Origin: Flavobacterium tructae
GTDB taxonomy: Bacteria; Bacteroidota; Bacteroidia; Flavobacteriales; Flavobacteriaceae
Assembly (NCBI RefSeq): GCF_002217475.1
Contig: NZ_MUHH01000004.1
Coordinates: forward strand, 1 to 64,000
Length of the DNA: 64,000 nucleotides
Reading direction: 5' to 3'
The notes beneath the pieces were generated by a model that was given only the letters and a program-made list of their open reading frames with translations, did no database searches and was not told where the DNA came from. The position numbers were made by a program, and so were the translations under genes. Shown one piece after another: positions 4,641-20,164 of the stretch (its first letter is position 1; the number at the start of each line of letters is the position of its first letter).

Positions 4641-5000
4641 ATGGAAAAATTTATCGTTATTAAAAAAGCCAATGGAGAATTTCAATTCGAATTTGTAAAT
4701 AAAAATGGTGAAATTATTTTAAGCAGTGGCGATTATACCCGAAAATTCATGTGTATGAAAGGGATTGAATCAGTAAAAGTTAATTCACAGGACAACACAA
4801 AATTCTTCCGGAAAACAAATTCAAAAGATGAAAGATATTTTAATCTTAAAGCTTTTAACGGAAAGATTATCGGAACAAGTAAAATATTTAAAGACAGAGA
4901 TTCCCGCGATGAAGGAATACTGGAATTTAGAAAATATGCACCACACGCTATTGTAGAAGATCACTCTAATACAGTATTGGCTGAGAGTGCAGCATTTTAG
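4641..5000 (+). CDS. YegP-like DUF1508 protein
   Basis: Small soluble protein of 119 aa with two tandem DUF1508 (YegP) units: residues about 8-56 (GEFQFEFVNKNGEIILSS ... MKGIESVKVNS) and about 58-108 (FNLKAFNGKIIGTSKIF ... EGILEFRKYAPHA). Family members are about 110 aa; the molecular function is not established. It lies 59 bp after the PAS kinase and may be cotranscribed with it. A terminator at 5123-5146 closes the unit. Confidence 0.85.
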   Translation: MEKFIVIKKANGEFQFEFVNKNGEIILSSGDYTRKFMCMKGIESVKVNSQDNTKFFRKTNSKDERYFNLKAFNGKIIGTSKIFKDRDSRDEGILEFRKYAPHAIVEDHSNTVLAESAAF

Positions 5001-5122
5001 AGTTATTCAATAAAACCGTCTGCCATTCGGTTTGATTTTATAAAACAATGAACTTTTGTCGTTTTCCGGATTGTAATAACGGAATCGTTTTTTAGATAAT
5101 TTAATTGGTATATTACACACCT

Positions 5123-5146
5123 AAGACCGCTTTTGCGGTCTTTTTT
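5123..5146 (+). terminator. intrinsic terminator
   Basis: Perfect 8-bp stem AAGACCGC / GCGGTCTT with a TTTT loop (5123-5142) followed by T residues. It lies 122 bp after the YegP-like gene. A weaker hairpin, AAACCG/CGGTTT, sits at about 5013-5032. Confidence 0.8.
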
Positions 5147-5256
5147 GTTTTTAATAAACTCAAGTTATAAATTAAAAACCTAAAAAAGAATCAGTTGTAA
5201 AGTTGGTAATTAAACAAAAAGTTTAGATAATCTAACCAGGAAGATATCTGGTCAGA

Positions 5257-5523
5257 TTTGCTCTGAAAGAGTTTTAGCATTAACATGATGTGCAGCACTA
5301 TGAATGATAATGGCAATTATAGGTTACGCCCTGAAAGGGCAAAAGCCTGATCGAAAAGGAAGGCATCCACATATTTTGTATAAGATTCTTTAAGAATGCG
5401 AGCGTTTTTTTTGAATTTGTTGGGGATGAAAATTGCTTTTGCCCCTTCAGGGCAATTCTGTATCTTGATCTAATACATAGTGCTTTGCACTATGCTGTTG
5501 CTTTTCAGGCTTTCAGCCCTTTT
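5257..5523. repeat. dispersed triple-palindrome repeat, copy A (inverted pair)
   Basis: Two related units in opposite orientation. Forward unit, about 5257-5354: CTCTGAAAGAG, then GTGCAGCAC with ACTATG, then GCCCTGAAAGGGC and AAAAGCCT. Reverse unit, about 5434-5523: GCTTTTGCCCCTTCAGGGC, then CATAGTGC-ttt-GCACTATG, then GGCTTTCAGCCCT. Each unit has the same three short palindromes in the same order. Related copies lie at 44463-44690 and 51617-51715. The rest of the 5001-5940 gap has an AT-rich stretch and the upstream region of the next gene, with no ORF or RNA gene that I can support. Confidence 0.8.
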
Positions 5524-5940
5524 TTCCGCAGCTTCTGTTCTTGATCTGCGATAAGCTGAAAAACATTTGCGTCTTTGTTACTTGTCCGTTTTATTTTATT
5601 ACTTTTTTTATTGTTTTTTGGTAAAAAAAAAGATTAATATTTTACAAATAGTAAAAAAAATAACTTTCCAGGGAAGTTACGCTTAATCAATACTTAACTT
5701 ATGCTCCGTGCAGTATTTTATCTGCTACTTTCCTTGAATTTCCTCACTTTAAAGATGTAAATCAAGCACTATTCTGTCAATATTTCAAGGATTATAAAAC
5801 TATTTTTTTACAAATACTTAACAAATTGGACCTCTCAATTTTCTTTTCTTTAACAATTAGATAATTTTTGATTATTTACTATTTATAAAAATCATTGTTT
5901 ATTTGCTTGTATAAATTTAATATTTGTAAACAAATTAACC

Positions 5941-8817
5941 ATGAAAACAATTTACAAGGCAATTTTAATTTTTTCGGTTGCACTTTTTACTCAAAACATG
6001 ACCGCCCAAAAGGCAACAATAAGCGGAACGATTACCGATGCGCAGTCCCCACTTCCGGGCGCAACCATTGTACTGTCTAATAATCAAAAAGCAACAACTG
6101 ATTTTAGTGGTTATTTTACAATTCAGGATGTAGGATCGGGCAGCTTTGAATTACAGATCTCCTATATAGGATATGAGGTAAAGAATATAAAAATTGATAT
6201 TAAAGACAATCAACAGTTAAAGTTAGGAATCATTCAACTGCAAAGCAATTCCAAAGAACTGAATGAAGTTGTCGTGAGCGGAATGGCTCAAAGAAATAGT
6301 GAAGCGAGAGCATTGAACATGCAGAAAAAATCAATGAGTATTGTAAATGTAATTGCTGCCGACGGGATTGGAAAACTACCGGATCGTAATGCTGCCGAAA
6401 CCGTACAGCGTATGCCGGGAGTTTCAATAGAGCGTGATCAGGGTGAAGGACGTTTCGTATCGGTGAGAGGATTACCGCCATTTTGGTCGTCGACTACAAT
6501 TAACGGAAACAGAATTCCAACTGCAGAAGAAGAAACGACTTCGAGAGCTACCGCATTTGATTTTTTCCCTTCAGATCTTATCGCCTATGTTGAAGCTACT
6601 AAAGCGCTTACACCCGACATGGATGGTGATGCGATTGGCGGAAGTGTCAATTTTACTACACAAACCGCTCCAACGAAAAGAACAATTAAAGCAAGTGCTT
6701 TTAGTGGATACAATCAAAAATCTGATAAAGGGATTTATAGTGGATCGCTTACAATAGGGGACAAAAGTAAAAATGGAAAGTTTGGATACATTATCAATGG
6801 TACGTATTGGGATAGAAACTGGGCTACCGATAATTACGAGGCGAGAAGACAAGGTGATCAGGGCGTTTACAGATTGGAGTTGAGAGATTACACCGGAGTT
6901 AGAAAAACCACAGGTTTAAATGGTGCAATGGAGTTTAATCCTTCATCGAGAGATAAAATTTTTCTGAAAGTAACTTATGGCGGACTTACAGATGAAGAAA
7001 CACATTACAAACACCGTATCCGATTTGATAAATTCAACGGTACAACAAATGCGTTAACGGTGGAACAGCAAGATATTCACAACCAATTAATGACACAATT
7101 TTTAGGTCTTGATTTAGGAGGAAAACATCAGTTAGCGAACGGAAAATTAGACTGGAGTCTGGCTTCTTATCGAAACAGGTTTAAGTATGGCAACATTCCA
7201 AATGCAGAAGACAACAGTTATTTTTTAATTCAGTTCAATCAAACCGGAGTAGGGGTTAAACCCGAATATTTAAAAACAGTGCCGCTTGCCAGTGGTGGAG
7301 CAGGAGGTCCAAGAGCGTATTGGGCTGCTGATGGCGGAATTATGGATCCAAGCAATCCAAAATCAATATTTGATTTTTATTCCGATCCAAATTTCAAAAC
7401 AGATCCAACAAAAATGAAGTTCTCTACTTTAGAACTTTACAAAATCAATATCGTAGAAAGAGACAACATTATTGCGGCTGTAAACTACGAGCATAATTTT
7501 AATGAGAATCTTAAAATGAAGTTCGGAGCGAAAGTAACAGATAAAGATCGTATCGCTACTTTTAGAGACGAATACTACAGCTGGACGGGTTCTCCAACTC
7601 CTTATTTGTCCAACTATGCTTCTGATTTAATTCTTCAACCGGGAGGTACAGATTACTTAAGGAAAGAAACAGGCACTTTGATTGGAAATAGTTTCGGTCC
7701 GGTTTTATCTCCGGACGGAATGACAAAATTATTCAATACCTCAAAAGCAAATCTGGTTTTAAATCCTGCTGATTCGCAGATTCCGGAACTGGGAAAAGGA
7801 TTAGGAAGAAACTTTAATGTAGGGGAGACAACCTCTTCTGTTTATGCGATGTCTACCTATAATCTGTCTGATAAATGGACTGTTTTGGGAGGTCTGCGTG
7901 TAACCAATACCATAACACAGGTAACGGGTAAAACAGTAGAAAACAATGTGGTGGTAGATGCTGAGAATACTAAAACATATACGTCAGTGCTTCCAATGTT
8001 GCACGTAAAATACACTCCGATTGAGAATTTGAACCTACGTTTTGCAATAACCAGAACATTTGCAAGACCTAATTTTGGAGACATTTCACCGGCAGGTTCA
8101 TTAAACACGATTGACGGAGAGTATGCAGGAGGAAATCCAAATTTGAACCCTACCTATTCCTGGAACTTTGATTTGTTAGGAGAGTATTTCCTTGACGAAG
8201 TGGGAATCATTAACGCCGGAGTATTCTACAAATCGATTACAGATCCAATTTTTGACGATACTTATCAGGGTACCATTAACGGCATTCCTGATATAGAAAT
8301 CAGTTCACCTGCTAACGGAGGAAATGCGTGGATTGGCGGAGTTGAATTTGGAATTACCAAGAGATTCAGCTTCTTGCCGGGATTCCTGAAATATTTTGGA
8401 ACTCAGATCAATGCAACTCTTATGGACTCTGAAATGACTTTAGGAAAAAATGCTAACAATCCTAACGGAAGAAAAGTATCAACACCTTATCAGGCAAAAC
8501 AATTATACAACTTGCAACTGTTTTATGAGAGCGGTAAACTGAATGTGAGAGCTGCCTTCAACCATAAAGGAGCTTATGCCACAAGTTTTGATGCCAATGC
8601 TAAAAATACAGACATGAATGATATTTATTACGGTAAATACAACTCGCTTGATTTTTCTGCTTCCTATAAAATTGGAGATCATTTTACCATTTTCAGTGAT
8701 GTAAATAATGTATTGAATGAGCCTTTGATGTACCATTTTGGAGAAACACCAAACCGCCCAAAACAGGTAGAATATTACGGAATGAAGTTTAACCTTGGTT
8801 TAAAATATAATTTATAG
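5941..8817 (+). CDS. TonB-dependent receptor (substrate of the phosphonate-like cluster)
   Basis: Outer-membrane active transporter, 958 aa. Signal peptide residues 1-23 (cut after MTAQ), then a carboxypeptidase-regulatory-like beta-sandwich (about 25-100), a plug domain (about 120-240) and a 22-strand barrel ending in an aromatic-rich C-terminus. The plug has the pattern GKLPDRNAAETVQRMPGVSI, RFVSVRGL and ALTPDMDGDAIGGSVNF, typical of the Xanthomonas/Caulobacter-type receptors (TIGR01782 group), which usually serve nutrient uptake rather than siderophores. It opens a same-strand run with DUF5690, FAD oxidase, HAD hydrolase and phosphodiesterase genes, so the ligand is probably an organophosphonate or related compound. 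That substrate is inference from neighbours. Start ATG at 5941 gives a clean signal peptide. Confidence 0.92.
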   Translation: MKTIYKAILIFSVALFTQNMTAQKATISGTITDAQSPLPGATIVLSNNQKATTDFSGYFTIQDVGSGSFELQISYIGYEVKNIKIDIKDNQQLKLGIIQLQSNSKELNEVVVSGMAQRNSEARALNMQKKSMSIVNVIAADGIGKLPDRNAAETVQRMPGVSIERDQGEGRFVSVRGLPPFWSSTTINGNRIPTAEEETTSRATAFDFFPSDLIAYVEATKALTPDMDGDAIGGSVNFTTQTAPTKRTIKASAFSGYNQKSDKGIYSGSLTIGDKSKNGKFGYIINGTYWDRNWATDNYEARRQGDQGVYRLELRDYTGVRKTTGLNGAMEFNPSSRDKIFLKVTYGGLTDEETHYKHRIRFDKFNGTTNALTVEQQDIHNQLMTQFLGLDLGGKHQLANGKLDWSLASYRNRFKYGNIPNAEDNSYFLIQFNQTGVGVKPEYLKTVPLASGGAGGPRAYWAADGGIMDPSNPKSIFDFYSDPNFKTDPTKMKFSTLELYKINIVERDNIIAAVNYEHNFNENLKMKFGAKVTDKDRIATFRDEYYSWTGSPTPYLSNYASDLILQPGGTDYLRKETGTLIGNSFGPVLSPDGMTKLFNTSKANLVLNPADSQIPELGKGLGRNFNVGETTSSVYAMSTYNLSDKWTVLGGLRVTNTITQVTGKTVENNVVVDAENTKTYTSVLPMLHVKYTPIENLNLRFAITRTFARPNFGDISPAGSLNTIDGEYAGGNPNLNPTYSWNFDLLGEYFLDEVGIINAGVFYKSITDPIFDDTYQGTINGIPDIEISSPANGGNAWIGGVEFGITKRFSFLPGFLKYFGTQINATLMDSEMTLGKNANNPNGRKVSTPYQAKQLYNLQLFYESGKLNVRAAFNHKGAYATSFDANAKNTDMNDIYYGKYNSLDFSASYKIGDHFTIFSDVNNVLNEPLMYHFGETPNRPKQVEYYGMKFNLGLKYNL

Positions 8818-8830
8818 ACAACTATAAGTT

Positions 8831-8900
8831 AACCCGTTGGATGTGCGCAGATTTTATTTTTACAGTTTATTTTTTTTTAATCTGCTGCAATCAACGGGTT
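8831..8900. repeat. inverted repeat / terminator-like hairpin after the receptor gene
   Basis: Nested arms AACCCGTTG (8831-8839) with CAACGGGTT (8892-8900), and GCAGATT (8847-8853) with AATCTGC (8879-8885). It lies between the receptor and the DUF5690 gene. It may attenuate read-through. The GCAGATT/AATCTGC core resembles inverted repeats at 22046-22135 and 25474-25552. Confidence 0.6.
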
Positions 8901-8963
8901 TCTAAAACAACCGTACTTATTTCACATTGATCACAACCCCATCACGTTAAATCTTAAGAACTA

Positions 8964-10247
8964 ATGTCTAAAAAAGCGTCTAATTTCAGGTTCATACTCA
9001 AAACGTCCATAGCGGCATTCGGCACTTATTTTTGTATGTATGCTTTCAGAAAACCTTTTACGGTCGCTACTTTCGATCAGTTGTCTTTTTGGGGAATAGA
9101 TTATAAAATTCTACTCATTTTAGCACAGGTTTTAGGCTATACTTTTTCTAAATTTTTAGGAATCAAAATCATATCCGAATTAAAGTCGGCCAGGAGAATT
9201 TTATATTTAATCAGTTTTATAGCCATTTCAGAACTGGCTTTGCTGGGCTTTGCTTTGGTACCGGCACCTTATAACATTCTATTTTTATTCATCAACGGAT
9301 TGCCTTTGGGAATGATTTGGGGAATCGTTTTCTCTTATATTGAAGGCCGAAAGACAACTGAATTACTGGGGGTAATTTTATGCTCGAGTTTTATCGTTTC
9401 CTCAGGAGCGGCAAAATCTGTCGGAGTATTTGTTCTGAAGATTTTGGGGTGCAATGAGTTTTGGATGCCTTTTGTTTCGGGATTACTTTTTATTGTTCCG
9501 CTAATCGTATTTTCATTGTTTTTGGAAAAAATCCCAAATCCGGATGACGAAGATCTGGTCATGAAATCCAAACGAAGACCTTTAGATAAAAAAGAACGTG
9601 CATCATTATTCCGACAATTTGCTTTTCCGTTGACCATACTGATCATTTTTTATGCCATGTTAACGGCAATGCGTGAATTCAGAGATAATTTTGCAAGAGA
9701 ATTATGGGATTCTTTGGGATACAAAGAGAGTATTTCGATTTATATGTATTCCGAGATTCCTATTGCGATATCTGTTTTGGTCATTTTAGGATTTTTAGGA
9801 AGTATGAAAAACAACTACAAAGCCTTCAAAAATTATCATTTGGTATTGCTCCTGGGTTCTGTACTTATAGGGATCACAACCTTATTGTTTCAAAAGCACT
9901 TAATGTCGCCACTTCTGTGGATGATGATTTCCGGATTTGGAATGTACGTTTGCTACATTCCGTTCAACGGTTTGTTTTTTGACCGTATGATTGCCACTTA
10001 TAAGATAGATGGAAATACCGGATTTTTAATTTACATCGCCGATGCTTTTGGTTACTTAGGAAGTGTATTGGTATTGTTTTTTAAAAATTTTGGTGACAAG
10101 AATATTTCCCTGTTAAGCTTTTTTACCACCTGTATTTATCTGCTCTCTTTTGTTGGGATCATCACTACCATCATGTCCTTTAACTATTTTAAAAGGAAGT
10201 TTAGAAAGACTGCTAAAATTCATGCGGCTATGAGTTATGAGATGTGA
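8964..10247 (+). CDS. DUF5690 family MFS-type membrane transporter
   Basis: Integral inner-membrane protein, 427 aa, with about 12 hydrophobic segments and two halves separated by a charged loop near residue 200 (LEKIPNPDDEDLVMKSKRRP). The N-terminus (FGTYFCMYAFRKPFTVATFD) and the motif LPLGMIWGIVFSYIEGRKTTE match the DUF5690 group, which resembles organophosphate antiporters of the MFS (GlpT/UhpT-like). It probably moves the compound delivered by the upstream TonB receptor from periplasm to cytoplasm. In Bacteroidota this family is often next to TIGR03364 oxidases and TIGR03351 hydrolases, as here. Substrate specificity is inferred, not seen. Confidence 0.88.
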   Translation: MSKKASNFRFILKTSIAAFGTYFCMYAFRKPFTVATFDQLSFWGIDYKILLILAQVLGYTFSKFLGIKIISELKSARRILYLISFIAISELALLGFALVPAPYNILFLFINGLPLGMIWGIVFSYIEGRKTTELLGVILCSSFIVSSGAAKSVGVFVLKILGCNEFWMPFVSGLLFIVPLIVFSLFLEKIPNPDDEDLVMKSKRRPLDKKERASLFRQFAFPLTILIIFYAMLTAMREFRDNFARELWDSLGYKESISIYMYSEIPIAISVLVILGFLGSMKNNYKAFKNYHLVLLLGSVLIGITTLLFQKHLMSPLLWMMISGFGMYVCYIPFNGLFFDRMIATYKIDGNTGFLIYIADAFGYLGSVLVLFFKNFGDKNISLLSFFTTCIYLLSFVGIITTIMSFNYFKRKFRKTAKIHAAMSYEM

Positions 10248-10392
10248 GTTATGAGATGCAAGATGCAAGATTTGAGACGCCGTGGAAAACCTGAAACTTG
10301 AAACCTGAAACTTAAAACTTGAAACTTGAAACCTGAAACCTGAAACAACAAACCAAAAACAAATAAACAGTAAAACAAATAAAAACACAAAC
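10248..10392. repeat. short degenerate tandem repeats
   Basis: Low-complexity DNA built of GAGTTATGAGATG and then units close to CCTGAAACTTGAAA repeated about five times (10290-10346). It separates the transporter and oxidase genes. The chance ORFs read on the minus strand here translate these repeats and are not genes. Similar simple repeats occur at 12405-12490 (CAATTAA units) and 49850-49885 (TTTACTC units). Confidence 0.7.
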
Positions 10393-11550
10393 ATGAAAGA
10401 GAAGTATGATTTAATAATTGTCGGGTCGGGAGTTCTGGGCACATTTCACGCCTACCATGCCCTGAAAAAAGGAATGTCGGTTGCCATTCTGGAAAAAAAT
10501 AGTAAACCGGAAGGTGCGACCGTTAGAAATTTTGGACAGGTTGTACCGTCCGGAATGGATCGAAAATGGCAGAATTTTGGAAAAGAAAGTTTAAAGATTT
10601 ATAAAGATATTCAATCGCAGTTTGACATTAGTATCCGTCAGAACGGAACTGTTTATCTGGCTTCAAATGAAGAAGAATTACAATTGATTGAAGAACTCCA
10701 TCAGATTAATATTTCGAACGATTACGAATCTAATTTGCTGACTAAGGAGCAATGCCTGAATAAATATGACGGTTTACGTGCTGACTATTGTAAAGGAGGA
10801 TTGTTTTTTCCGCAGGAAGTTACCGTTGAACCTTCCACAATGATTCATAAATTACATCAGTATATGACAGCTAATCTTGGACTTGATTTGTTTATGAATA
10901 CTACTGTCGTAGAAACCCGGGACCTAAACGATGAAGTAATAGCAAGAACTGCGGCAGGTGCAGTATACAAAGCTTCAAAAATTATTATTTGTAACGGAAG
11001 TGATTTCAAAATATTATATCCTGAGATTTACAACAACAGCGATCTGATTGTTTCTAAACTACAGATGCTGCAGACGAAACCTCAGAATAATTACAAACTG
11101 GACGGCTCTATTTTAACGGGATTGACCATCAGAAGATATGAATCGTTTGAAGAATGTAAATCGTATCAGGCCATCAAAGCAAAAGAGAATCCGGATAGTT
11201 TTGAGAAAAAGTATGGCGTTCATATCCTGTTCAAGCAAGCCCTTGACGGTTCGGTGATTTTAGGAGATTCTCATGAGTATGCTCCCGCAAAAGAAATTGA
11301 TTCTTTGGGATTTGATCTGAATATGGACATCGATCATTTTATGATTGAAGAAGCCAAAAAGATAATCGATTTGCCTACTTATGAAATCCAGAACAGATGG
11401 TTTGGAATGTACTCGCAATGTAAGACCAAAGATATTTTCGAATACACCGTTGACCAGAATATTCACATCATAACCGGAATAGGAGGAAAGGGCATGACGG
11501 GAAGTGCAGGATTTGCCAAACATAATATTGATACAATTTTTAATGCATAG
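10393..11550 (+). CDS. FAD-dependent oxidoreductase, TIGR03364 type (aminophosphonate oxidase candidate)
   Basis: Flavoenzyme of the D-amino-acid oxidase (DAO) fold, 385 aa. The N-terminus has the dinucleotide-binding motif IIVGSGVLGTFHAYHALKKG with the acidic end of beta-2 (ILEKN), followed by GATVRNFGQVVPSG. The C-terminus has the second FAD contact ITGIGGKGMTGSAGFAKH. This layout fits the TIGR03364 family, which genomic context ties to oxidative deamination of 2-aminoethylphosphonate-like compounds, usually next to a TIGR03351 phosphonatase-like hydrolase. That gene is in fact next here. The expected product would be an aldehyde for the HAD enzyme. The exact amine is not readable from sequence. 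No signal peptide, so cytoplasmic. Confidence 0.88.
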   Translation: MKEKYDLIIVGSGVLGTFHAYHALKKGMSVAILEKNSKPEGATVRNFGQVVPSGMDRKWQNFGKESLKIYKDIQSQFDISIRQNGTVYLASNEEELQLIEELHQINISNDYESNLLTKEQCLNKYDGLRADYCKGGLFFPQEVTVEPSTMIHKLHQYMTANLGLDLFMNTTVVETRDLNDEVIARTAAGAVYKASKIIICNGSDFKILYPEIYNNSDLIVSKLQMLQTKPQNNYKLDGSILTGLTIRRYESFEECKSYQAIKAKENPDSFEKKYGVHILFKQALDGSVILGDSHEYAPAKEIDSLGFDLNMDIDHFMIEEAKKIIDLPTYEIQNRWFGMYSQCKTKDIFEYTVDQNIHIITGIGGKGMTGSAGFAKHNIDTIFNA

Positions 11551-11709
11551 GGATTGTAAGTTTTGAGTTATGAGTTATATGGGAAATTATTAATCATAGT
11601 TTATAATCTACATTTATAGTGCTTTCTAGAGCAATAAACAATAGATTTTAAACCATCAACCATTAACCACCAACCAAAAACTATAAATTTTTTAAAATAA
11701 ATACACAAA

Positions 11710-12390
11710 ATGAAAATTAATGAAATTGAAATGGTTGTTTTTGATATGGCAGGAACAACAATAAATGAGCAAAATATAGTTTACAAAACATTGCATAAAT
11801 CCATCAACAAATTCGGGATCGAGGTTTCTTTGGAATCGGTATTGTCATTAGGAGCAGGAAAAGAAAAACATCAGGCGATCAGGGATATTTTAGAATACAA
11901 TAACATCACAGACGAGAATAAATCAGATGTAATATTCGAATATTTTAAAGAAACACTGGACAATGAATATCTTTCAGCTTCCGTTTTACCTATTGAAGGC
12001 GTTGAAAATGTTTTTGAAAATTTAAAAAAGGACGGTGTAAAAGTGGTACTAAACACTGGTTACAGCAGTCACGTTGCGAATACCTTATTAGAAAAGTTAA
12101 ACTGGAAGGAAGGAAACCAATACGATGCCTTAATCACCGCCGATGATGTAGTGCTGGGACGTCCATTTCCGGATATGATATACAAAGCCATGCAATTATT
12201 TGCAATTACAGACGCTTCAAAAGTACTAAAAGCGGGAGATTCTGCGATAGATATTGAAGAAGGTAAAAATGCTAAATGCGGTGTAACAATAGGCGTTTTA
12301 TCCGGCGCACAAACCAGACAGCAGCTTGAAGCAGCCCAGCCCGATTACATATTAAATTCGCTGGCATCGCTTTATAGTGTTATGAAGTGA
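11710..12390 (+). CDS. phosphonatase-like HAD hydrolase, TIGR03351 type
   Basis: HAD-superfamily hydrolase, 226 aa. Motif I is VVFDMAGTT with nucleophile Asp12, close to the DxAGT of phosphonoacetaldehyde hydrolase (PhnX). The cap region has LGAGK, whose Lys51 is at the place of the Schiff-base lysine in PhnX (MGxxK). Motif II is NTGYSS (about 118-123), and motifs III/IV are GRPFPDM and KAGDSAIDIEEG. This suggests C-P bond cleavage of a phosphono-aldehyde, leaving phosphate. The family is separate from true PhnX and its substrate is not settled. Gene order right after the TIGR03364 oxidase supports a two-step pathway. The 160-bp gap before it contains no gene. Confidence 0.9.
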   Translation: MKINEIEMVVFDMAGTTINEQNIVYKTLHKSINKFGIEVSLESVLSLGAGKEKHQAIRDILEYNNITDENKSDVIFEYFKETLDNEYLSASVLPIEGVENVFENLKKDGVKVVLNTGYSSHVANTLLEKLNWKEGNQYDALITADDVVLGRPFPDMIYKAMQLFAITDASKVLKAGDSAIDIEEGKNAKCGVTIGVLSGAQTRQQLEAAQPDYILNSLASLYSVMK

Positions 12391-12561
12391 GGTGTTTGAT
12401 GTGAATAATGTTAGAAACAAGAAGTTAGAAGCAAGAAGAAAGAAGTAACAATTAACAATTAACAATTATCAATTATCAATTAACAATTAGTAAAAACAAT
12501 ATCCCTGCAGGAAAAGTTTCAAACAAGTAAATAAATAGTAACCATAAAACAATTCAACCCA

Positions 12562-14244
12562 ATGAAAAAGATTTTTAGATTAAGTTACATTACAATTCTT
12601 GCAAGTGTGCTTTTAGTCACTTCCTGTACCAACGATTCAGCGCTTGTGAAAGACGAACAGGCAGTAAATGCTAAAACAAACTCTAAAACCGGCAAATCTG
12701 CTTTAAGCAGTGGTACCAGAAAATTGCTTATTATAGGAATCGACGGCTGTCGTGGAGATGCCCTAATGGGAGCCAATACTCCTAATGTTCATGCTTTATT
12801 ACCGAATGCGGTTTACAGTTTAGATGCATTGACCGAAGCACCTACGTGGAGTGGAAACGGCTGGTCGACGATGCTTACCGGTGTGACCCATTTAAAACAT
12901 GGCGTAACCGATAATTCATTTTCGAGTCCGAATTTTACCTCGTATCCTAGTTTTTTGAAAAGACTTGAAACGTATAATTCTGCTTTAAAAACCATGTCGA
13001 TTGTGCATTGGGCACCCATCAATACCTATATTGTGGATGGCATTGATGTAGAGAAAACGCTCACCACCGATTTGGCCGTTAAAAATGAAGTGGTTGCCGC
13101 ACTTACAAATGACAACCCGGATGCTTTATTTTTGCATTTTGATGATGTGGATCATGCAGGACACAGCTATGGATTTTCGCTTAATGTGCCACAATACAAA
13201 TCTTCAATCGAAACCACAGACGGTTACATAGGTGAAATCTTAACGGCTTTAAAGAACAGACCTAATTATGCCAATGAAGACTGGCTGGTTGTGGTAGCGC
13301 CGGATCACGGAGGGATTGTTACAGGTTCTAGCGGATCTCATGGCGGAAGTTCTTACGAAGAACGAAACATCTTTACTATTTTCAACAATAAAAACTTTAC
13401 TTCGACTAAAATCGAAAAACCGGTTGATCCCACTACAACGGTAACGGGTAAATTTGTCAATTTTAATTCCAATTCTATTTATGCTTCAACATCCAATGCA
13501 CTTTACAATTTCGGAACTTCGAGTTTTACAGTAGAATGTCGAGTAAAAACATCAGGATATAGCAGTGATCCTTCGCTGGTTTCGAATAAAAACTGGGTGA
13601 GTGGTAAAAACCGAGGTTTTGTTATCTGTGCCAATACCGGAGGAACATGGAAGGTAAATATTGGGGACACTCAAAGTCGTGTGGATATTTCCGGTGGGAC
13701 AATCAATGATGGGAAATGGCATCACTTGACACTTGTAGTAGACCGTACAGCCAAATTGGTTAAAACGTATCAGGACGGTGCTTTTGTGGGGCAGGCTGCT
13801 ATTGGAGCCAGTTTCGGAAGTCTGACTTCCGGACTGCCTTTCGCAATAGGACAGGACGGAACGCTCACATATGGTGCCAATGTAAACGGAAATATTGCTG
13901 AGGTGCGTGTATGGAACAAAGCCTTATCGGAAGCTTCGATTTTAAATTATACCTGTTCTTCAGTTACCGCTTCACATCCGGATTACTCCAATCTTATTGG
14001 ATATTGGAAAGGAGATAACGGATCAGGAAACAGTTTTACCGATTCAAGCGTTCAGCAGGTAAACCTTGCTTTTCCAAATACTCCAACATGGACAAGCAGT
14101 ACAGCTACCTTAAAATGTGGTACCGCAACAGGAGCAGTTCCAAAGATGGTAGATATCGCCTATTCTTCATTGCAATGGTTTGGTGTACCCATCAATACAA
14201 GCTGGTCATTAGACGGCCGTTCATGGCTTCCGACAGCGAACTAA
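12562..14244 (+). CDS. lipoprotein phosphodiesterase / alkaline-phosphatase-superfamily enzyme with embedded LamG domain
   Basis: Exported enzyme, 560 aa. The lipobox LVTSC (Cys22) marks a lipoprotein. The catalytic fold is type I phosphodiesterase / nucleotide pyrophosphatase: metal ligand Asp61 in IGIDGCRGD, nucleophile region APTWSGNGWSTMLTG (Ser97 is the best candidate), DDVDHAGH (Asp194-His201), APDHGG (Asp248, His249) and SHGG (His260). At about 295-515 comes a LamG/concanavalin-like sandwich (SFTVECRVKTSG, DGKWHHLTLVVDR, NIAEVRVWNKALS), and then the last part of the phosphatase fold (PKMVDIAYSSLQWFGVPI, WSLDGRSW). The LamG domain therefore sits inside the catalytic domain. It may liberate phosphorylated or phosphonylated head groups from a glycan or lipid at the cell surface. 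Cluster membership is supported by orientation and order. Confidence 0.87.
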   Translation: MKKIFRLSYITILASVLLVTSCTNDSALVKDEQAVNAKTNSKTGKSALSSGTRKLLIIGIDGCRGDALMGANTPNVHALLPNAVYSLDALTEAPTWSGNGWSTMLTGVTHLKHGVTDNSFSSPNFTSYPSFLKRLETYNSALKTMSIVHWAPINTYIVDGIDVEKTLTTDLAVKNEVVAALTNDNPDALFLHFDDVDHAGHSYGFSLNVPQYKSSIETTDGYIGEILTALKNRPNYANEDWLVVVAPDHGGIVTGSSGSHGGSSYEERNIFTIFNNKNFTSTKIEKPVDPTTTVTGKFVNFNSNSIYASTSNALYNFGTSSFTVECRVKTSGYSSDPSLVSNKNWVSGKNRGFVICANTGGTWKVNIGDTQSRVDISGGTINDGKWHHLTLVVDRTAKLVKTYQDGAFVGQAAIGASFGSLTSGLPFAIGQDGTLTYGANVNGNIAEVRVWNKALSEASILNYTCSSVTASHPDYSNLIGYWKGDNGSGNSFTDSSVQQVNLAFPNTPTWTSSTATLKCGTATGAVPKMVDIAYSSLQWFGVPINTSWSLDGRSWLPTAN

Positions 14245-14267
14245 AAAATTTGTGTTTTTTGTTTTTT

Positions 14268-14300
14268 AAAGGGTTATCTTCTTTTTTGAAGGTAGCCTTT
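14268..14300 (+). terminator. probable intrinsic terminator of the phosphonate-like cluster
   Basis: Imperfect stem AAAGGGTTATCTTC / GAAGGTAGCCTTT with a T-rich loop and a T-run after it, 24 bp past the phosphodiesterase stop codon. Several mismatches lower confidence. Confidence 0.55.
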
Positions 14301-14322
14301 TTGATTTGATTCTGGCTTGGAG

Positions 14323-14512
14323 TTTAACCGCAAAGAACGCTAAGATGTTACACAAGGTTCGCAAAGTTTTTTAATGTAAAGAGATGGTTTAACCGAAAAG
14401 AGCGCACAGATGTTATGCAAGATTCGCGAAGTTTTATTTACAAAGCTTTGCGAACTTTGTTTTTTAAAAGGTTTGACCTGTAAAAATAACTTAGCGTTCT
14501 TTGCGGTTAAAA
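14323..14512. repeat. inverted/direct repeat array (CCGCAAAGAACGC family)
   Basis: Two direct units start TTTAACCGCAAAGAACGC (14323) and TTTAACCGAAAAGAGCGC (14388). Both run through ATGTTA, CAAG and TTCGC-AAGTTTT. A reverse unit (about 14444-14512) ends CTTAGCGTTCTTTGCGG TTAAA. The outer arms match over about 22 bp. The array lies between the convergent phosphodiesterase and regulator genes and has no ORF. Confidence 0.75.
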
Positions 14513-14522
14513 ACGGTTAAAT

Positions 14523-15107
14523 CTAATTATTACTCTCAGAATAAAAGTAGAGCACCAGCATCACACAGTTTTCTGTTGTTCGGTTTTGAGGCACGTGCGG
14601 ATGCCTTCCGTTGAAACATAGCGAATCGCCTTCATTGACAACCACTTCTGCATCATCTATAATATAAGTCACACTTCCTTTAATGATGTATTTGAACTCC
14701 CAGGCATCTGTAATTACTTTTTCACGTTTACAGTTGGGTTCTACGTCAAGAATTACAGCTTCAAAACCAATAGAGTTAATGCTTTTACTGAAAATATGAT
14801 AATAGTTAAAACCGGTAGTTTCGGCACGGTCCTCTTTTTCTATTTTTTGATAATCTTCTTTTTTAATATGAATGTATTTCGCATTCTTGGTATTTTCAAC
14901 GCCTTCAAAAAAGTAACTCACATCCGTATTTAAGGATTGGATCAATTCAATTAGAACGGGTAGGGAAGGAATTGTTCTTCCGTTTTCAATTCTGGAAATC
15001 AAACCGTTGCTAACTCCGGCTCTGTTGGCTACTTCGTGTATGGTTAATGCATTTTTCTTCCTGATCTCTTTTAATCTCTTTCCAATACCAATTAAAAAAT
15101 CTTCCAT
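14523..15107 (-). CDS. XRE-family regulator with C-terminal cupin domain
   Basis: DNA-binding regulator, 194 aa. Residues about 8-63 form a lambda-repressor-like HTH (RLKEIRKKNALTIHEVANRAG, VSNGLISRIENGRTIPSL). Residues about 115-190 form a small cupin barrel (AWEFKYIIKGSVTYIIDD, EGDSLCFNGRHPHVPQN). HTH-cupin proteins commonly sense a small metabolite and control an adjacent catabolic cluster. It is convergent with the phosphodiesterase gene, and I infer that it controls the TonB receptor-to-phosphodiesterase run and senses a pathway compound. No operator could be identified. Start ATG at 15107 gives the full HTH. Confidence 0.9.
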   Translation of the reverse strand: MEDFLIGIGKRLKEIRKKNALTIHEVANRAGVSNGLISRIENGRTIPSLPVLIELIQSLNTDVSYFFEGVENTKNAKYIHIKKEDYQKIEKEDRAETTGFNYYHIFSKSINSIGFEAVILDVEPNCKREKVITDAWEFKYIIKGSVTYIIDDAEVVVNEGDSLCFNGRHPHVPQNRTTENCVMLVLYFYSESNN

Positions 15108-15215
15108 AATAAAAACTTCAGTTTAGTATGGTAAATATAATACAATTAGCGGGTGAGTTGCAAAAGCAGGGAAGCCTTTGCGTTAATTTTACATTTTTTA
15201 TAGCTCGGATCATGG

Positions 15216-15382
15216 CACATGGATGATACGGATTCGCTAGGTGAAGACGCGGATCTGCACGGATTTTTTTGTTTTATCCGGGATAGGATTATTTTATCAT
15301 GATTACGCATTTTATTCTTCTAAAAATCCGTTTTCATCCGCTTTCATCCGCGTTTTTGTGAAACGAATCCGCTTCATCCGTG
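15216..15382. repeat. large imperfect inverted repeat (ACGGATTCGC family)
   Basis: The left arm (15216-15267) contains ACGGATTCGCTAGG, GACGCGGAT and CACGGATTTT. The right arm (15322-15382) contains the reverse complements AAAAATCCG, ATCCGCGTTTTTGTG and GAATCCGCTTCATCCGTG. The arms match over most of about 50-60 bp and are separated by about 54 bp. There is no ORF. It occupies most of the gap between the XRE-cupin and TPR genes (15108-15440). Confidence 0.75.
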
Positions 15383-15440
15383 TATTTTTTTTAGTACGAA
15401 CTTAAAAACTAAAAAGAAGCTTTTTAAAATAGGACAGAAA

Positions 15441-16001
15441 TCAATTCACCGTGACATTTCTAACCTTTGTTTTTTTAATGAGGTTGAGAGAATCCCTGAT
15501 TAACGATTTTATTTCTAACGATGGAGCTTTGCGAATTTCATGTCTGTTTTGAATTGGGCCCTCTATGTCCATTTTAGCAGCCTGTAAATGGGCTTCGAAC
15601 GCTCTGAGCACCTGATTTTCGATAGTTGAATGTTTCTTGTAGTAATAGATTGCATTGTGCAAATCCTCTATGTGGCCCGTAAAATCTAAGATTGCTCTTT
15701 TGGATACCGCCCGATTGTAGTAAATAGAAAACTCTAAAGGATCAGTTTCAATGGCTTTGTCGAAATCCTCAATAGCATTATAATGGTAATCCAGTTTTTG
15801 AAGACAAGTTCCTCTTAAGGCATATACCCCCTGATCAAATCCGGAATTGATCGCACAGTTTAAATGCAGCAGGGCATCCTGAAACCGATTCGACAAATAA
15901 AACTGTCTGCCCTTTTCCAGATGAAGAGAACCATCATTAGAAACGGGTTTTGAAAGTCTTTCCGTAAACTTTTTTATTACTAAAGTGTTGAACCATTTCA
16001 T
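15441..16001 (-). CDS. TPR-repeat protein
   Basis: Soluble protein of 186 aa with tetratricopeptide-type helix pairs between about 28 and 135: LEKGRQFYLSNRFQDALLHL, GVYALRGTCLQKLDYHYNAI and FSIYYNRAVSKRAILDFTGH. It has no signal peptide, catalytic motif or membrane segment. TPR units usually mediate protein contacts. Neighbours give no clear partner: inverted-repeat DNA on one side and the PepSY gene 212 bp away on the other. Start ATG at 16001. Function unknown. Confidence 0.8.
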   Translation of the reverse strand: MKWFNTLVIKKFTERLSKPVSNDGSLHLEKGRQFYLSNRFQDALLHLNCAINSGFDQGVYALRGTCLQKLDYHYNAIEDFDKAIETDPLEFSIYYNRAVSKRAILDFTGHIEDLHNAIYYYKKHSTIENQVLRAFEAHLQAAKMDIEGPIQNRHEIRKAPSLEIKSLIRDSLNLIKKTKVRNVTVN

Positions 16002-16213
16002 GCTTTTGAGATTTTAGCCAACAGATTAAACAAGTCCTAAAAAGATTTATTAGAAATGGGGGGATTAAATTTAGTTAAATTTTTGAAATATAGCAACTTA
16101 CGATTGTTTTTATTTCGAAGAACACAGCAAAAGGATCCTAATTACCGAATAGGTAAGAAAATTTTTCCAAAGAAATACAACAACCGAATAAGATGATTTG
16201 TTTTATCAAAAAG

Positions 16214-17320
16214 CTACTTTTTCTTTCTGCCGAGCCAAATAATTAGTCCCGTAATTGGTAATGTCGCAGCAAAAAGGCAAACCAAAAAAGCAATTATTTT
16301 GGTGGTTAATCCATAAACACTTCCGGTATGAATAGGATACATCAAACGTTTCAGTTTGTCACCGTTTGAATAGGATTTATAAGGTCTGTTTTCAATATTT
16401 TCCGCCGTATACTTATCAAAATAAGCCGAGCTGGATTGATGTGGAATGATTCTTTCGAGATCTTCCTTCAGAACGGTAATACTATTAATTGTATCCACCG
16501 GCATTCTAATTTGGATATTTCCGGTATAAGGAAAAATACTGTCGGTCTTATTGTAAATACTTTGGTAAAAAGCAGTATTATTGAGTTTAGGATCTATTTT
16601 TGTTGGATTCTCTACTTTTAAAGACAGTTTTTTACTGGTTGTTCCATCGGCCATTAAATAAAGACCATTTTGAAACCAGTCGAAGGCGAAGGAAAGACCG
16701 GTTAGCGAAATAATAAGTAAAGCTAAAAAGCTGTAAAAGCCAAAAGTAGAATGAAAATCCCAATTGATTCTTTTGAAAGAACCGCTCCATTTTACCTTTA
16801 GTCGTTGTTTTAAATTTTTAATTTTTTTCGGCCACCATAACACCATACCTGTGAGCAGCATCAGAACAAAGATAATACAGGAAGATCCCATAATAAGCTG
16901 ACCGGCATCACCCATTAGCAGTTGTCTGTGGAGTGAAAGTACGACCACAAAAAATCGACTTTCCTGAGGTGTTGTGGCGAGCACTTTTCCGGTATAAGGA
17001 TCAATAGAAAAAAACTGTGCCTTTTTATCAGCATCCTTTGCCAGAATTTGGAAGGTACGCGAAGGATCATTAAAGGTATAAATTCGGGTGATTTTTTTGA
17101 TGCCGTATTGTTTCTGAAGAACGTCTGTACAATAATCAATCGTTTTTTTGGTAGTTCCTACAGATGAAACCTGATAGTATTGAGGATGTAAGAATGAGTC
17201 AATTTCTTTTTCAAAAACTAAAATACTGCCGGTTAAGGCCGCAATGAAAACGATTAAACCTGAGCCAAGCCCCAGCCATAAATGTATTTGTCTGATCGTT
17301 TTTTTTATTCCTTTCTTCAT
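16214..17320 (-). CDS. PepSY-TM membrane protein, candidate ferri-siderophore reductase
   Basis: Inner-membrane protein of 368 aa with four hydrophobic segments: near 13-36 (HLWLGLGSGLIVFIAALTG), 140-164, 196-220 and 335-362. Two PepSY-type periplasmic stretches are visible (STTPQESRFF-like processing region about 90-130, and about 235-310). Conserved His residues lie in HLWLG, LHRQLLMG, DFHSTFGFY and IHTGSVYGL. This is the PepSY_TM layout; a characterised relative, FoxB, is a heme-containing inner-membrane ferri-siderophore reductase. The gene is divergent from a TonB siderophore receptor and close to a complete hydroxamate biosynthesis cluster, so iron release from the imported siderophore is a good guess. 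The promoter has a dyad at 17429-17441. Confidence 0.85.
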   Translation of the reverse strand: MKKGIKKTIRQIHLWLGLGSGLIVFIAALTGSILVFEKEIDSFLHPQYYQVSSVGTTKKTIDYCTDVLQKQYGIKKITRIYTFNDPSRTFQILAKDADKKAQFFSIDPYTGKVLATTPQESRFFVVVLSLHRQLLMGDAGQLIMGSSCIIFVLMLLTGMVLWWPKKIKNLKQRLKVKWSGSFKRINWDFHSTFGFYSFLALLIISLTGLSFAFDWFQNGLYLMADGTTSKKLSLKVENPTKIDPKLNNTAFYQSIYNKTDSIFPYTGNIQIRMPVDTINSITVLKEDLERIIPHQSSSAYFDKYTAENIENRPYKSYSNGDKLKRLMYPIHTGSVYGLTTKIIAFLVCLFAATLPITGLIIWLGRKKK

Positions 17321-17415
17321 TTAGTAGCTTATTTGGTTTTATTGGCACTCCGGTTCACACCGTAATAGCATCATTTTCTGTTGGAATTAAACTTGAATCC
17401 ACAGAAAATGCGTCG

Positions 17416-17441
17416 CAAATTTATACTTATTTAGACTAAAT
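17416..17441 (-). promoter_or_regulatory. promoter -7 element and overlapping palindrome for the PepSY gene
   Basis: On the minus strand TAAATTTG (17423 to 17416) matches the Bacteroidota -7 consensus TAnnTTTG. Immediately upstream is the perfect odd palindrome ATTTAG-A-CTAAAT (17429-17441), placed in the -7/-33 spacer. The sequence CTTATTTAGA around it matches the core of the operator-like elements at 17734-17748 (opposite strand) and 31706-31730. A clear -33 box is not seen. Likely an iron-regulator site, by inference. Confidence 0.6.
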
Positions 17442-17661
17442 CTTTATTTTTTAAATGAAAAAAAGAACCGTAAAACCTCAAAAATGCTCATTTATTAACT
17501 TTTGAATGGAGTAGTCTTAAACTTTGAGAAGAGAAAACTTACAGATTGATTTTGAATCGTTTTGTGACATTCGTACAATTTTTTAAGCTGCCGCAGTTGC
17601 AATATTGCTTTTTTATCAAGAAACGGATTTATTTTCTGACAAAGGCGCATGAATTATTAAA

Positions 17662-17675
17662 TATTCTATAGAATA
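17662..17675. promoter_or_regulatory. 14-bp perfect palindrome in the PepSY/receptor intergenic region
   Basis: TATTCTATAGAATA is a perfect dyad 15 bp upstream of the -33 box of the receptor promoter. Its half-sites ATTCT and AGAAT are those of the operator at 17734-17748, with closer spacing. It may be a second regulator site. Confidence 0.45.
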
Positions 17676-17689
17676 AATCGAAATAATAC

Positions 17690-17719
17690 TTGTTAAACAA
17701 TTATTAATCTTTATTTTTG
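17690..17719 (+). promoter_or_regulatory. Bacteroidota-type promoter of the siderophore receptor
   Basis: TTG at 17690-17692 (-33) and TATTTTTG at 17712-17719 (-7, exact TAnnTTTG) are separated by 19 bp, as in known Bacteroidota sigma-ABfr promoters. Transcription would start near 17726, giving a leader of about 50 nt. Confidence 0.65.
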
Positions 17720-17733
17720 CGCTGTTTTTATTA

Positions 17734-17748
17734 ATTCTAAATAAGAAT
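17734..17748 (+). promoter_or_regulatory. operator-like dyad at the receptor transcription start
   Basis: ATTCT-AAATA-AGAAT: 5-bp arms, exactly the reverse complement of 31706-31720 upstream of the siderophore biosynthesis operon. It lies about 15 bp downstream of the -7 box, so a bound protein would block initiation. A Fur-like iron repressor is the natural candidate. Confidence 0.65.
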
Positions 17749-17776
17749 AAAATCACTAACCAAAAAATTAAAATCA

Positions 17777-20164
17777 ATGAAATATCTTAGTTTAAGAACA
17801 TCAAAGTTTTTATTTATTATCAGCCTCTTATTTTCAGTCTTTTCTTCTTTTGCACAACAAAATGGTGGAAAAATTAAAGGACAAATCACAACCTCTGACG
17901 GAAAATCGGCTTCGGGAGTTATTATTACACTTAAAAATTCAAGATATAAAACCATTTCAAATATTGACGGCAGCTTTAGACTGAACAAAATTGCAGAGAA
18001 TATTTATACACTACAAGCTTCATTATCGGGTTACGAAACGATTGAACAGGAAGTTACGGTTGCCAACAATGAAACGACCAATGTGACTTTGCAATTGAAA
18101 TTTAATGGTAAAGAAACCAGAGCTTCTGAAGACAATGGTGACCAACTCGATGAAATTATCGTTTCAGCGAGCAGAAAAGTAGAAACCTTATCAAAAACAC
18201 CTTCTTCGGTAACCGTAATCAACGCTAAGGATATTGAAGACTTATCAATTGTAAGTTCAAATATTGCCAATACTGTGGCATTTGCAGTTCCGGGTTTGGG
18301 ATCGGGTACAAACAATACAGGGAATTACGGTCAGACACTTCGCGGAAGAAATCCCTTAGTTTTGATTGATGGGATTCCGCAATCGACACCGTTGAAATCT
18401 GCAGGACGTGAACTGCGTTCTATAGATCCTTCGGTAATTGAACGTATCGAAGTCATTAAGGGAGCAACTGCCATTTATGGGAATGGTGCTGACGGAGGTT
18501 TGATTAATTACATTACAAAATCAGGTAAAACTCAGAAGAAATTTGCCGGATACAGTGAGGCAGGAACTAACGGAAATATAAAAGGTGACAGTACATTAGG
18601 ATACCGATTCAATCAGCAGTTTTACGGAAAAATCAGTAAGTTTAACTATATGGTAGGCGGAACTTATGAAAAAACGGGTGTTTTTCGTGATGGAGGAGGG
18701 AAGGTTATTTCTCCTGAATACGGATTAGGGGAAACTAAAACGTATAATGTGTTTACCAAAGTAGGTTACGATTTAACTCCTAAGCAAAGAATTGACTTCA
18801 TGTACAATTACTTCAGTTCGAATCAGGATTCGGATTTTATCCTTAAAAATGGAGTATACGGTGTAAGCCCGGCAATTGGAGTATTGGGTAACAGGCCTGG
18901 TGTAGACGAAGGAAATCGTTACAATCATAACGCTAATCTTCAATATGTAAACAGAGGGATTTTTGGAAGCACTTCACTTACAGCTAACTTGTATTTTCAG
19001 GATTTCCTGACGGCATTTTCTAACTCTACTTTTTTCTACGGAAGCGGACAATCACAAACAGCATCTACTAAAAAAGGGTTAAGAGTATATTTGAATTCTC
19101 CTTTTGTAATTTCGTCAAACTTCACAGGTGATGTGACTTACGGATTCGATTTACTAAACGATAAAACGAATCAAAAACTGGTTGACGGACGTGTTTGGGT
19201 TCCGAACATCGATATGGTCAATTTGGCACCATATGCGCAATTATCGACACAGTTGTTTGGTGACTGGAATGTAAAAGCAGGTTTACGTGCAGAAAATATT
19301 AAAATCAATATCGACGATTATAATACTCTTGCTACCGGTGCAAATGGAGCGGGAAGTATCGCTGTAAAAGGTGGTGAACTTAATTATGATGCTTTTGTTT
19401 TTAATACAGGTATTCGATATTCAAGATTTAAATTCTTCAATCCGTTTGTGAGTTTTTCTCAGGCTTTTTCTGTATTTGATTTAGGAAGGGTTTTAACCAA
19501 TGCAAAACAGGATGCCATCTCTAAGTTAGAGACAGAACCAATTATTGTCAACAACTATGAAGGAGGTTTTAGCAGTCAGTTAGGGAAATTCAATTTAAGT
19601 GCTTCTTATTATTTGAGTACATCAAAATTAGGAACCAATTTGATTCAGGTAGACGGATTTTTAGTAGCAGAACGTTTGCCGGAAAGAGTTTGGGGATATG
19701 AAGTTCAGGCCGATTACCAAATTCTTAAGGAATTGACAGTAGGGGGTAACTATGCAAATGTACAGGGAAGAGGGGATAAAGATTCTGACGGGAACTTTTA
19801 CGGACCAAACGATATTTATTTGAAATCAAACCGAATTCCTCCGGTTAAAATTACAGGTTACGCAAAGTATGGCGGTAAAAGATTAAATGTTGAATTGTAC
19901 TGGATGTACGTTGGTGATCGTGATGTTTTCAAACCAAATGCAAAAGGAGCTTATGCCATTGGTGAAGGACCAATTCATTCGTTCAATTTATGGAATCTGG
20001 CATCTGCTTATAAAGTAACAGATAGCATCCGTGTTAAACTTGGAATTGAAAATATATTCAATACCGATTATTATCCAACGACTTCGCAATTTTTCGGTAC
20101 AAATGCCAATTATACAAGAGGAAACGGTACCAGATTTAATTTAGCACTGGGATATAGCTTCTAA
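17777..20164 (+). CDS. TonB-dependent siderophore receptor
   Basis: Outer-membrane receptor of 795 aa. Signal peptide 1-27 (cut after SSFAQ), carboxypeptidase-regulatory-like domain (about 32-110), TonB-box-like DEIIVSA (about 127-133), plug (about 140-255: VETLSKTPSSVTVINAKDIE, TLRGRNPLVLIDGIPQS, RIEVIKGATAIYGNGADGGL) and a barrel ending ALGYSF. Plug sequences of this form are typical of ferri-siderophore receptors. It is divergent from the PepSY reductase candidate and convergent with the biosynthesis operon, with which it shares an operator-like sequence. The natural substrate is therefore probably the siderophore made by 31638-20350. Heterologous hydroxamates are a possible alternative. 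Confidence 0.92.
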   Translation: MKYLSLRTSKFLFIISLLFSVFSSFAQQNGGKIKGQITTSDGKSASGVIITLKNSRYKTISNIDGSFRLNKIAENIYTLQASLSGYETIEQEVTVANNETTNVTLQLKFNGKETRASEDNGDQLDEIIVSASRKVETLSKTPSSVTVINAKDIEDLSIVSSNIANTVAFAVPGLGSGTNNTGNYGQTLRGRNPLVLIDGIPQSTPLKSAGRELRSIDPSVIERIEVIKGATAIYGNGADGGLINYITKSGKTQKKFAGYSEAGTNGNIKGDSTLGYRFNQQFYGKISKFNYMVGGTYEKTGVFRDGGGKVISPEYGLGETKTYNVFTKVGYDLTPKQRIDFMYNYFSSNQDSDFILKNGVYGVSPAIGVLGNRPGVDEGNRYNHNANLQYVNRGIFGSTSLTANLYFQDFLTAFSNSTFFYGSGQSQTASTKKGLRVYLNSPFVISSNFTGDVTYGFDLLNDKTNQKLVDGRVWVPNIDMVNLAPYAQLSTQLFGDWNVKAGLRAENIKINIDDYNTLATGANGAGSIAVKGGELNYDAFVFNTGIRYSRFKFFNPFVSFSQAFSVFDLGRVLTNAKQDAISKLETEPIIVNNYEGGFSSQLGKFNLSASYYLSTSKLGTNLIQVDGFLVAERLPERVWGYEVQADYQILKELTVGGNYANVQGRGDKDSDGNFYGPNDIYLKSNRIPPVKITGYAKYGGKRLNVELYWMYVGDRDVFKPNAKGAYAIGEGPIHSFNLWNLASAYKVTDSIRVKLGIENIFNTDYYPTTSQFFGTNANYTRGNGTRFNLALGYSF

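Follow-up and report, generated by a model that had tools for sequence, protein, structure and literature searches.

A DUF5690-linked gene set of Flavobacterium tructae and its likely role in substrate-induced aminophosphonate utilisation

Oxidases of the PbfD type have been assayed and convert the N-methyl derivative of 2-aminoethylphosphonate (AEP) into phosphonoacetaldehyde. PbfD1 of Acinetobacter carries the annotation TIGR03364, PbfD2 of Mariniblastus accepts AEP too, about 4-fold more slowly, and a PbfD2-PhnX route that works without PhnW is already published (Zangelmi 2023, PMC10590968). AepP, a GlpT-related permease of Pseudomonas putida, is described as needed for growth with AEP as the nitrogen source (Murphy 2021, PMC8316502), and phosphodiesterases beside PusC/PusD pairs, the phosphate utilisation systems, are known in Flavobacterium (Lidbury 2020, PMC8115612). 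Here we analyse a stretch of 64,000 nucleotides of Flavobacterium tructae (assembly GCF_002217475.1, contig NZ_MUHH01000004.1, positions 1 to 64,000; hereafter the window), in which six genes encode a TonB-dependent receptor, a DUF5690 protein, an oxidase, a hydrolase, a predicted exported esterase and a helix-turn-helix (HTH)-cupin regulator.

What the window has in common with the PbfD-PhnX pathway, as that pathway is described (PMC10590968), is a PbfD-type oxidase and a phosphonatase-type hydrolase that would lead, without PhnW, via phosphonoacetaldehyde to phosphate. The window differs in adding an outer-membrane receptor, a predicted exported esterase, DUF5690 and the HTH-cupin regulator, and its hydrolase is of the TIGR03351 type, under the PhnX equivalog cut-off. 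DUF5690 can be likened to AepP, going by the description of the latter (PMC8316502), as a predicted single-protein carrier of the major facilitator superfamily (MFS) tied to AEP catabolism, perhaps with GlpT-like phosphate-binding residues; however, it is a separate Pfam family without significant sequence match to GlpT alone, and its transport is predicted. In contrast to the PusC/PusD systems as reported (PMC8115612), the window receptor has no SusD and its likely control is the HTH-cupin protein. The PbfD-PhnX core is already known; new are the linkage and structural relation of DUF5690, the palindrome described below, the SusC/SusD form of the locus and the recurrent, predicted exported esterase.

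All together, we consider it likely that the six genes form a substrate-induced aminophosphonate utilisation locus. In the working that we propose, the surface esterase would release AEP or N-methyl-AEP that is esterified to glycans or lipids, and the TonB receptor, then DUF5690, would carry the freed compound inward, DUF5690 perhaps swapping aminophosphonate for phosphate. The oxidase would then convert AEP or N-methyl-AEP to phosphonoacetaldehyde, which the hydrolase would split into phosphate and acetaldehyde, and the HTH-cupin regulator, sitting on a palindrome, would repress the locus until substrate arrives.

Catabolic core, DUF5690 and their linkage

The six genes lie where the first-pass annotation of the window had placed them, as confirmed by open reading frame calls and by Pfam and NCBIfam scores: five on the forward strand and the HTH-cupin gene on the reverse strand. 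Its assignment of the oxidase to TIGR03364 and of the hydrolase to TIGR03351 also holds, both proteins scoring above the family cut-offs (Table 1). Spacing between the five forward genes is 145-171 bp, and these gaps do not establish a single shared transcript. The absence of an ABC phosphonate transporter, PhnW and C-P lyase, claimed before for the window, extends to the whole 4.95 Mb genome: neither PF12974 (phosphonate-binding ABC protein) nor PhnJ (C-P lyase) has a match there, and the best scores for PhnW (37.8 bits, cut-off 400.8), PbfA (259.7 bits, cut-off 525) and PhnA (39.4 bits, cut-off 407.55) stay under their cut-offs.

The oxidase and hydrolase had been called a pair that is not fully characterised. 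This no longer applies to the oxidase family, since assays exist for PbfD1 and for a second PbfD (PMC10590968). For the hydrolase family, our literature search found no paper naming TIGR03351. With the PhnX equivalog model TIGR01422 the hydrolase reaches 118.1 bits, under the cut-off of 220; this weighs against our reading, and we therefore filed the protein as PhnX-like (TIGR03351). Its top PDB sequence matches are phosphonoacetaldehyde hydrolases. Residues D12, A14-G15-T16, K53, R151 and D177 do not vary among the 82 homologs taken from DUF5690 loci, and the window hydrolase fits what we take to be the phosphonatase pattern defining the PhnX-like family (DxAGT, the cap-domain Lys of GxxK, and Arg replacing the usual Lys). 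An automatic alignment pairs Lys51 with the Schiff-base lysine of PhnX. On our own reading of the register the counterpart is probably Lys53, because it never varies and preserves the G-x-x-K spacing, whereas position 51 is Lys in only 51 of the 82 homologs. The import, deamination and C-P cleavage suggested earlier for the locus are supported, as predictions, by how the proteins score against their families, by catalytic residues that do not vary, and by a synteny with other aminophosphonate enzymes that recurs from locus to locus, and we hold with high confidence that the catabolic core acts on an aminophosphonate.

Among 247 Bacteroidota genomes, the window genome included, DUF5690 occurs in 23, TIGR03364 (E <= 1e-30) in 18 and both in 17 (Fisher p 2e-20). 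TIGR03351 above 160 bits, a count that leaves out four genomes with weaker matches of 78-93 bits, occurs in 17 genomes, and 16 of these hold DUF5690. Since 17 of the 18 TIGR03364 genomes also hold DUF5690, the gene set is not a chance neighbourhood.

The synteny survey of DUF5690, proposed earlier as a check, covers two sets of loci: 22 sampled loci from the phylum sample, with 15-20 kb fetched around the DUF5690 gene, and 80 named loci, the best 80 of at least 546 confirmed, with up to 21 kb around it. The latter are biased to near relatives (23 Chryseobacterium, 10 Flavobacterium and 9 Arenibacter among them), and sampled L032 has the same Zobellia DUF5690 as named L095. One or more of the clustered aminophosphonate enzymes are close to DUF5690 in 16 of the sampled and 78 of the named loci. 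The partner enzymes vary: PbfD with a PhnX-like hydrolase in some, PbfA in an Arenibacter locus (732.3 bits, cut-off 525), and PhnW (452.1 and 590.5 bits, cut-off 400.8), PhnX (295.9 bits, cut-off 220) or Phn-HD (215.9 bits, cut-off 214.6) in sister loci; gene order and strand vary as well. Carrier, enzyme, receptor and one of two esterase clusters are found together in 59 named and 6 sampled loci, or in 62 and 9 when a PF01676 esterase-like cluster is also counted.

The survey also yields points that weaken the linkage. Congeners are abundant among the loci, so that the p-values overstate independence. The clustered aminophosphonate enzymes are lacking around DUF5690 in six sampled (L034, L038, L047-L050) and two named loci (L066, L069): the selected neighbours scanned in L034, L038, L047-L049 and L066 are unrelated, L050 has a weak phosphoesterase match nearby and L069 is close to a contig end. 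These eight loci need at least five changes on a tree thinned to 61 rows by dropping 40 near-duplicate loci, and the exceptions are therefore not one side branch. The DUF5690 genes of L034, L047 and L049 form one supported branch and may have another role.

DUF5690 is a large family, thousands strong (7,744 of 7,999 scored candidates matched), and our literature search found no paper naming DUF5690 or PF18943. The window protein is 97% identical to a protein of Flavobacterium sp. UGB4466. For its structure model, which has the MFS fold, the glucose-6-phosphate transporter SLC37A4 ranked first. Three residues aligned with phosphate-site residues of GlpT are invariant in 101 rows; R29 and R237 align with R45 and R269 of GlpT, presumably its phosphate-binding Arg pair, in a weak match to a GlpT-anchored profile (local E 0.0025). 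The residue match is suggestive only, and several results tell against the placement. The profile score is 32.9, and reversed-profile controls reach 25.6; a profile of the OPA family minus the E. coli sequences scores 14.7, with no match or alignment to DUF5690 (13 of 30 OPA and 15 of 30 FucP loci passed the length filter for the OPA and FucP profiles, the others being left out). Among 16 OPA rows, R45 is found in 14, K80 in 3 and R269 in 6. The TM-scores of the model are higher with SPNS2 (0.69) and DgoT (0.68) than with SLC37A4 (0.59), and the window protein has no NCBIfam match. The OPA-type model TIGR00881 (cut-off 407.75) does not match it, and one of ten DUF5690 proteins matched that model weakly (22.7 bits, E 4.3e-5). 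Single sequences of GlpT, UhpT, UhpC, ProP and LacY showed no significant similarity to DUF5690, ProP scoring above GlpT, and a PDB sequence search gave no match. We conclude that DUF5690 is probably an aminophosphonate carrier, a prediction from sequence, by which import is perhaps exchanged against phosphate. As far as our literature search shows, this is the first functional proposal for the family.

The palindrome and the HTH-cupin regulator

A 15-bp palindrome, TTTAC-WAWTW-GTAAA, was noticed in the upstream regions of DUF5690 loci. The window holds one exact copy, the sole exact match to TTTACWAWTWGTAAA in the genome, and two copies with one mismatch, all three within 300 bp upstream of the receptor gene (Table 1). 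With at most one mismatch, 156 sites were found in 102 loci (146 intergenic, 10 coding), compared with 8 in one mononucleotide shuffle of each. Among upstream regions of at least 60 bp, those with a palindrome number 29 of 63 for DUF5690, 25 of 38 for the receptor, 21 of 32 for the LamG-type esterase and 8 of 42 for SusC; for the regulator they number 10 of 74, for the SusD-linked esterase 0 of 18, and for all other genes 27 of 551. In Flavobacterium it stands before DUF5690 in none of 10 cases but before the receptor in 11 of 13; in the remaining mixed genera, mostly without that receptor, it stands before DUF5690 in 29 of 44. This split fits a position before the first gene of an operon.

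The regulator gene is found in 74 of the 102 loci, and the palindrome in 68 of the 74 loci with it versus 4 of the 28 without it (p 6e-14); three of these four (L054, L104, L128) are cut by contig ends. In a hand-picked list of 27 loci, about one per genus, all 22 regulator-bearing loci have the palindrome. The regulator resembles the PuuR model at a score far under its cut-off. The HTH-cupin regulator and the palindrome very probably form a pair. The end of the last window site and the receptor start codon are 10 bp apart, an arrangement that would suit a repressor, and the HTH-cupin protein would bind the palindrome and repress until substrate is present.

Other counts argue in the opposite direction. 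Genome-wide, the pattern with at most one mismatch occurs in 23 places versus 16 for the reversed pattern, a modest excess. The palindromes of LamG-type esterases are all from Chryseobacterium (21 of 23), with 0 of 9 in the Flavobacterium type and 0 of 18 in the SusD-linked one. A window site at 12480, considered as an esterase operator, was dropped; it sits in an AACAATT repeat, and none of the nine Flavobacterium-type relatives has one. Separately, window positions 47183-47197 hold another exact TTTAC-N5-GTAAA palindrome, whose GC centre places it outside the WAWTW pattern. A scan for sigma-70 promoters gave 34 sites versus 33.3 in shuffles.

The surface esterase and competing readings

Two surface forms recur among the loci, a TonB receptor without SusD or a SusC/SusD pair. 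In Flavobacterium, Chryseobacterium and Tenacibaculum, the SusD-less receptor stands directly 5' of DUF5690. The window receptor, with no SusD beside it among the window genes, belongs to a sequence cluster found in 35 of the 80 named and 3 of the 22 sampled loci. An esterase with LamG and DUF4983 domains is found in most Flavobacterium and Chryseobacterium loci (its cluster in 30 named loci). Many other Flavobacteriaceae have a SusC member (37 named loci) and SusD (33), and a divergent, SusD-linked esterase cluster is found in 32 named loci, a scanned member having Fn3-associated and PA14 modules. Another protein of the alkaline-phosphatase superfamily (PF01676) is found in 14 loci (L092:18772-19863, L071:17708-18862 and 12 others), often near DUF5690 or SusD and sometimes with a purple-acid-phosphatase-like protein. 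In 21 loci (L071:13323-14603, L070:18165-19445 and 19 others) a conserved protein, up to about 427 aa long, lies 3' of the SusD-linked esterase. For the member tested, neither NCBIfam (E <= 1e-6) nor Pfam (E <= 1e-5) gives a match, and its start presumably resembles that of an exported metallo-beta-lactamase-fold protein.

The window esterase scores above the gathering score of PF01663, with metal ligands and nucleophile at the places expected for the NPP type. The 13 esterases that were aligned, drawn from both forms, all share D61, S97, D197, H201, D248, H249 and H260, and we take these seven to correspond to the NPP metal ligands and nucleophile. Export is predicted from a lipoprotein-like start (lipobox Cys22, read by eye); a crude lipobox pattern matched 12 of 32 LamG-type and 8 of 38 SusD-linked esterases, and a Chryseobacterium homolog ends in the Por secretion sorting tail PF18962. 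Marine phosphonate has been described as mainly polysaccharide-linked, and enzymes of the alkaline-phosphatase superfamily have been discussed as freeing phosphonates from marine polysaccharides (PMC5649143, PMC8931226). The phosphonate monoester hydrolase of Rhizobium has a formylglycine nucleophile, according to the title of a paper cited in PMC5649143. The window esterase has Ser97 in place of formylglycine (Cys), and is therefore not of the phosphonate monoester hydrolase type. Its recurrent linkage, and the palindrome shared in Chryseobacterium, would connect it to esterified phosphonate. That it acts on aminophosphonate esters is the least certain part of our proposal, and we find the case for it nearly balanced, leaning slightly against.

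The best-surviving alternative holds that the core degrades free aminophosphonate and that the esterase, a companion phosphorus scavenger, cuts ordinary phosphate diesters such as lipid head groups, nucleotides or phosphoglycans. This is a possibility to be taken seriously. The structure model of the esterase is poor (pLDDT 50.4) and its pocket not judgeable, which does not help our assignment. A Foldseek search with the partial, low-confidence catalytic model, used for superfamily assignment only, gave nucleotide pyrophosphatases/phosphodiesterases as best matches, with ENPP7 and ENPP6 listed. Phosphodiesterases adjoining PusC/PusD pairs are, moreover, a known theme in Flavobacterium, and the substrate cannot be read from any sequence feature. 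Yet esterases recur next to dedicated aminophosphonate enzymes in two divergent clusters whose C-terminal modules differ, and the Chryseobacterium esterase gene bears the palindrome.

It is unlikely that the locus mainly serves an AEP relative such as 1-hydroxy-2-aminoethylphosphonate, with hydroxyphosphonoacetaldehyde as the oxidase product, as the TIGR family description proposed. The placing of the hydrolase in the PhnX-like family and not in the PhnX equivalog would suit such a substrate, as would PbfA, of the hydroxy-AEP lyase family, in some sister loci, and we know of no tested TIGR03351 member. The assayed PbfD enzymes, however, prefer N-methyl-AEP, one taking AEP too (PMC10590968), and the window genome has no PbfA above cut-off.

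We rate somewhat lower still, as improbable, that DUF5690 is a general MFS protein placed by shared descent of the cluster and not by function. The six enzyme-less sampled loci would agree with this, and many MFS families fit the DUF5690 fold nearly as well or better by TM-score, but DUF5690 persists across many genera while enzymes and order change, and it is held by nearly all PbfD genomes. Very improbable is a locus that handles a phosphate ester, for instance phosphoethanolamine from glycerophosphoethanolamine, with the HAD protein as a plain phosphatase: an ENPP-like esterase and an SLC37/GlpT-like carrier fold would suit an organophosphate, but what we take to be the phosphonatase pattern is kept in all 82 homologs and the sister-locus neighbours are PhnW, PbfA, PhnX and Phn-HD. 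General phosphodiester use by the cluster was rejected because the HAD residues and the varying neighbours point to phosphonate.

Features of the window and wider significance

The features are collected in Table 1. An Rfam search of window positions 4900-16200 gave no match. The adjoining locus at 16214-20164 encodes a PepSY membrane protein and a second TonB receptor, which, as we guess, perhaps serve iron uptake.

Table 1. Genes and palindromes of the proposed aminophosphonate locus (window positions).
Feature	Position	Strand	Details
Operator-like palindrome TTTACAAATAGTAAA, exact	5641..5655		Same word found 5' of DUF5690, TonB-receptor and esterase genes in relatives
Operator-like palindrome, one mismatch	5875..5889		
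Operator-like palindrome, one mismatch	5916..5930		Ends 10 bp 5' of receptor start codon
TonB-dependent receptor, CarboxypepD_reg domain, no SusD adjoining	5941..8817	+	958 aa; TIGR01782 492.6 bits, cut-off 310
DUF5690 protein, predicted aminophosphonate carrier, MFS fold	8964..10247	+	427 aa; DUF5690 555.8 bits, cut-off 25
PbfD-type FAD-dependent aminophosphonate oxidase	10393..11550	+	385 aa; TIGR03364 420.6 bits, cut-off 285.1
Phosphonatase-like C-P hydrolase	11710..12390	+	226 aa; TIGR03351 240.6 bits, cut-off 218.9
Predicted exported alkaline-phosphatase-superfamily phosphodiesterase	12562..14244	+	560 aa; PF01663 72.3 bits, cut-off 23; LamG PF13385; DUF4983 PF16356
HTH-cupin transcription regulator	14523..15107	-	194 aa; HTH_3 and Cupin_2

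The SusC/SusD form of the locus bears on a published case. The Maribacter forsetii pair P177_RS04595/04600 had its highest values in laminarin-grown cells, was also expressed on glucose, and is assigned by the authors to laminarin uptake; its neighbours in the proteome are an alkaline phosphatase, a FAD-dependent oxidoreductase and a phosphonatase-like hydrolase (PMC11345257). Going by that description, the neighbourhood resembles the SusC/SusD locus form, and the laminarin role credited to the pair therefore merits a second look.

DUF5690 loci offer candidate phosphonate-releasing esterases, a candidate carrier family, and a regulator with its likely operator. Tentatively, they may represent a Bacteroidota-wide class in which exported alkaline-phosphatase-superfamily esterases with lectin-like modules would strip AEP or N-methyl-AEP from phosphonoglycans or phosphonolipids, uptake would pass through a TonB receptor alone or SusC/SusD, DUF5690 would be a new aminophosphonate:phosphate exchanger that exports the phosphate made inside, and an HTH-cupin protein would act as repressor. 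If this were true, aminophosphonate would be usable for nitrogen and carbon even when phosphate is plentiful.

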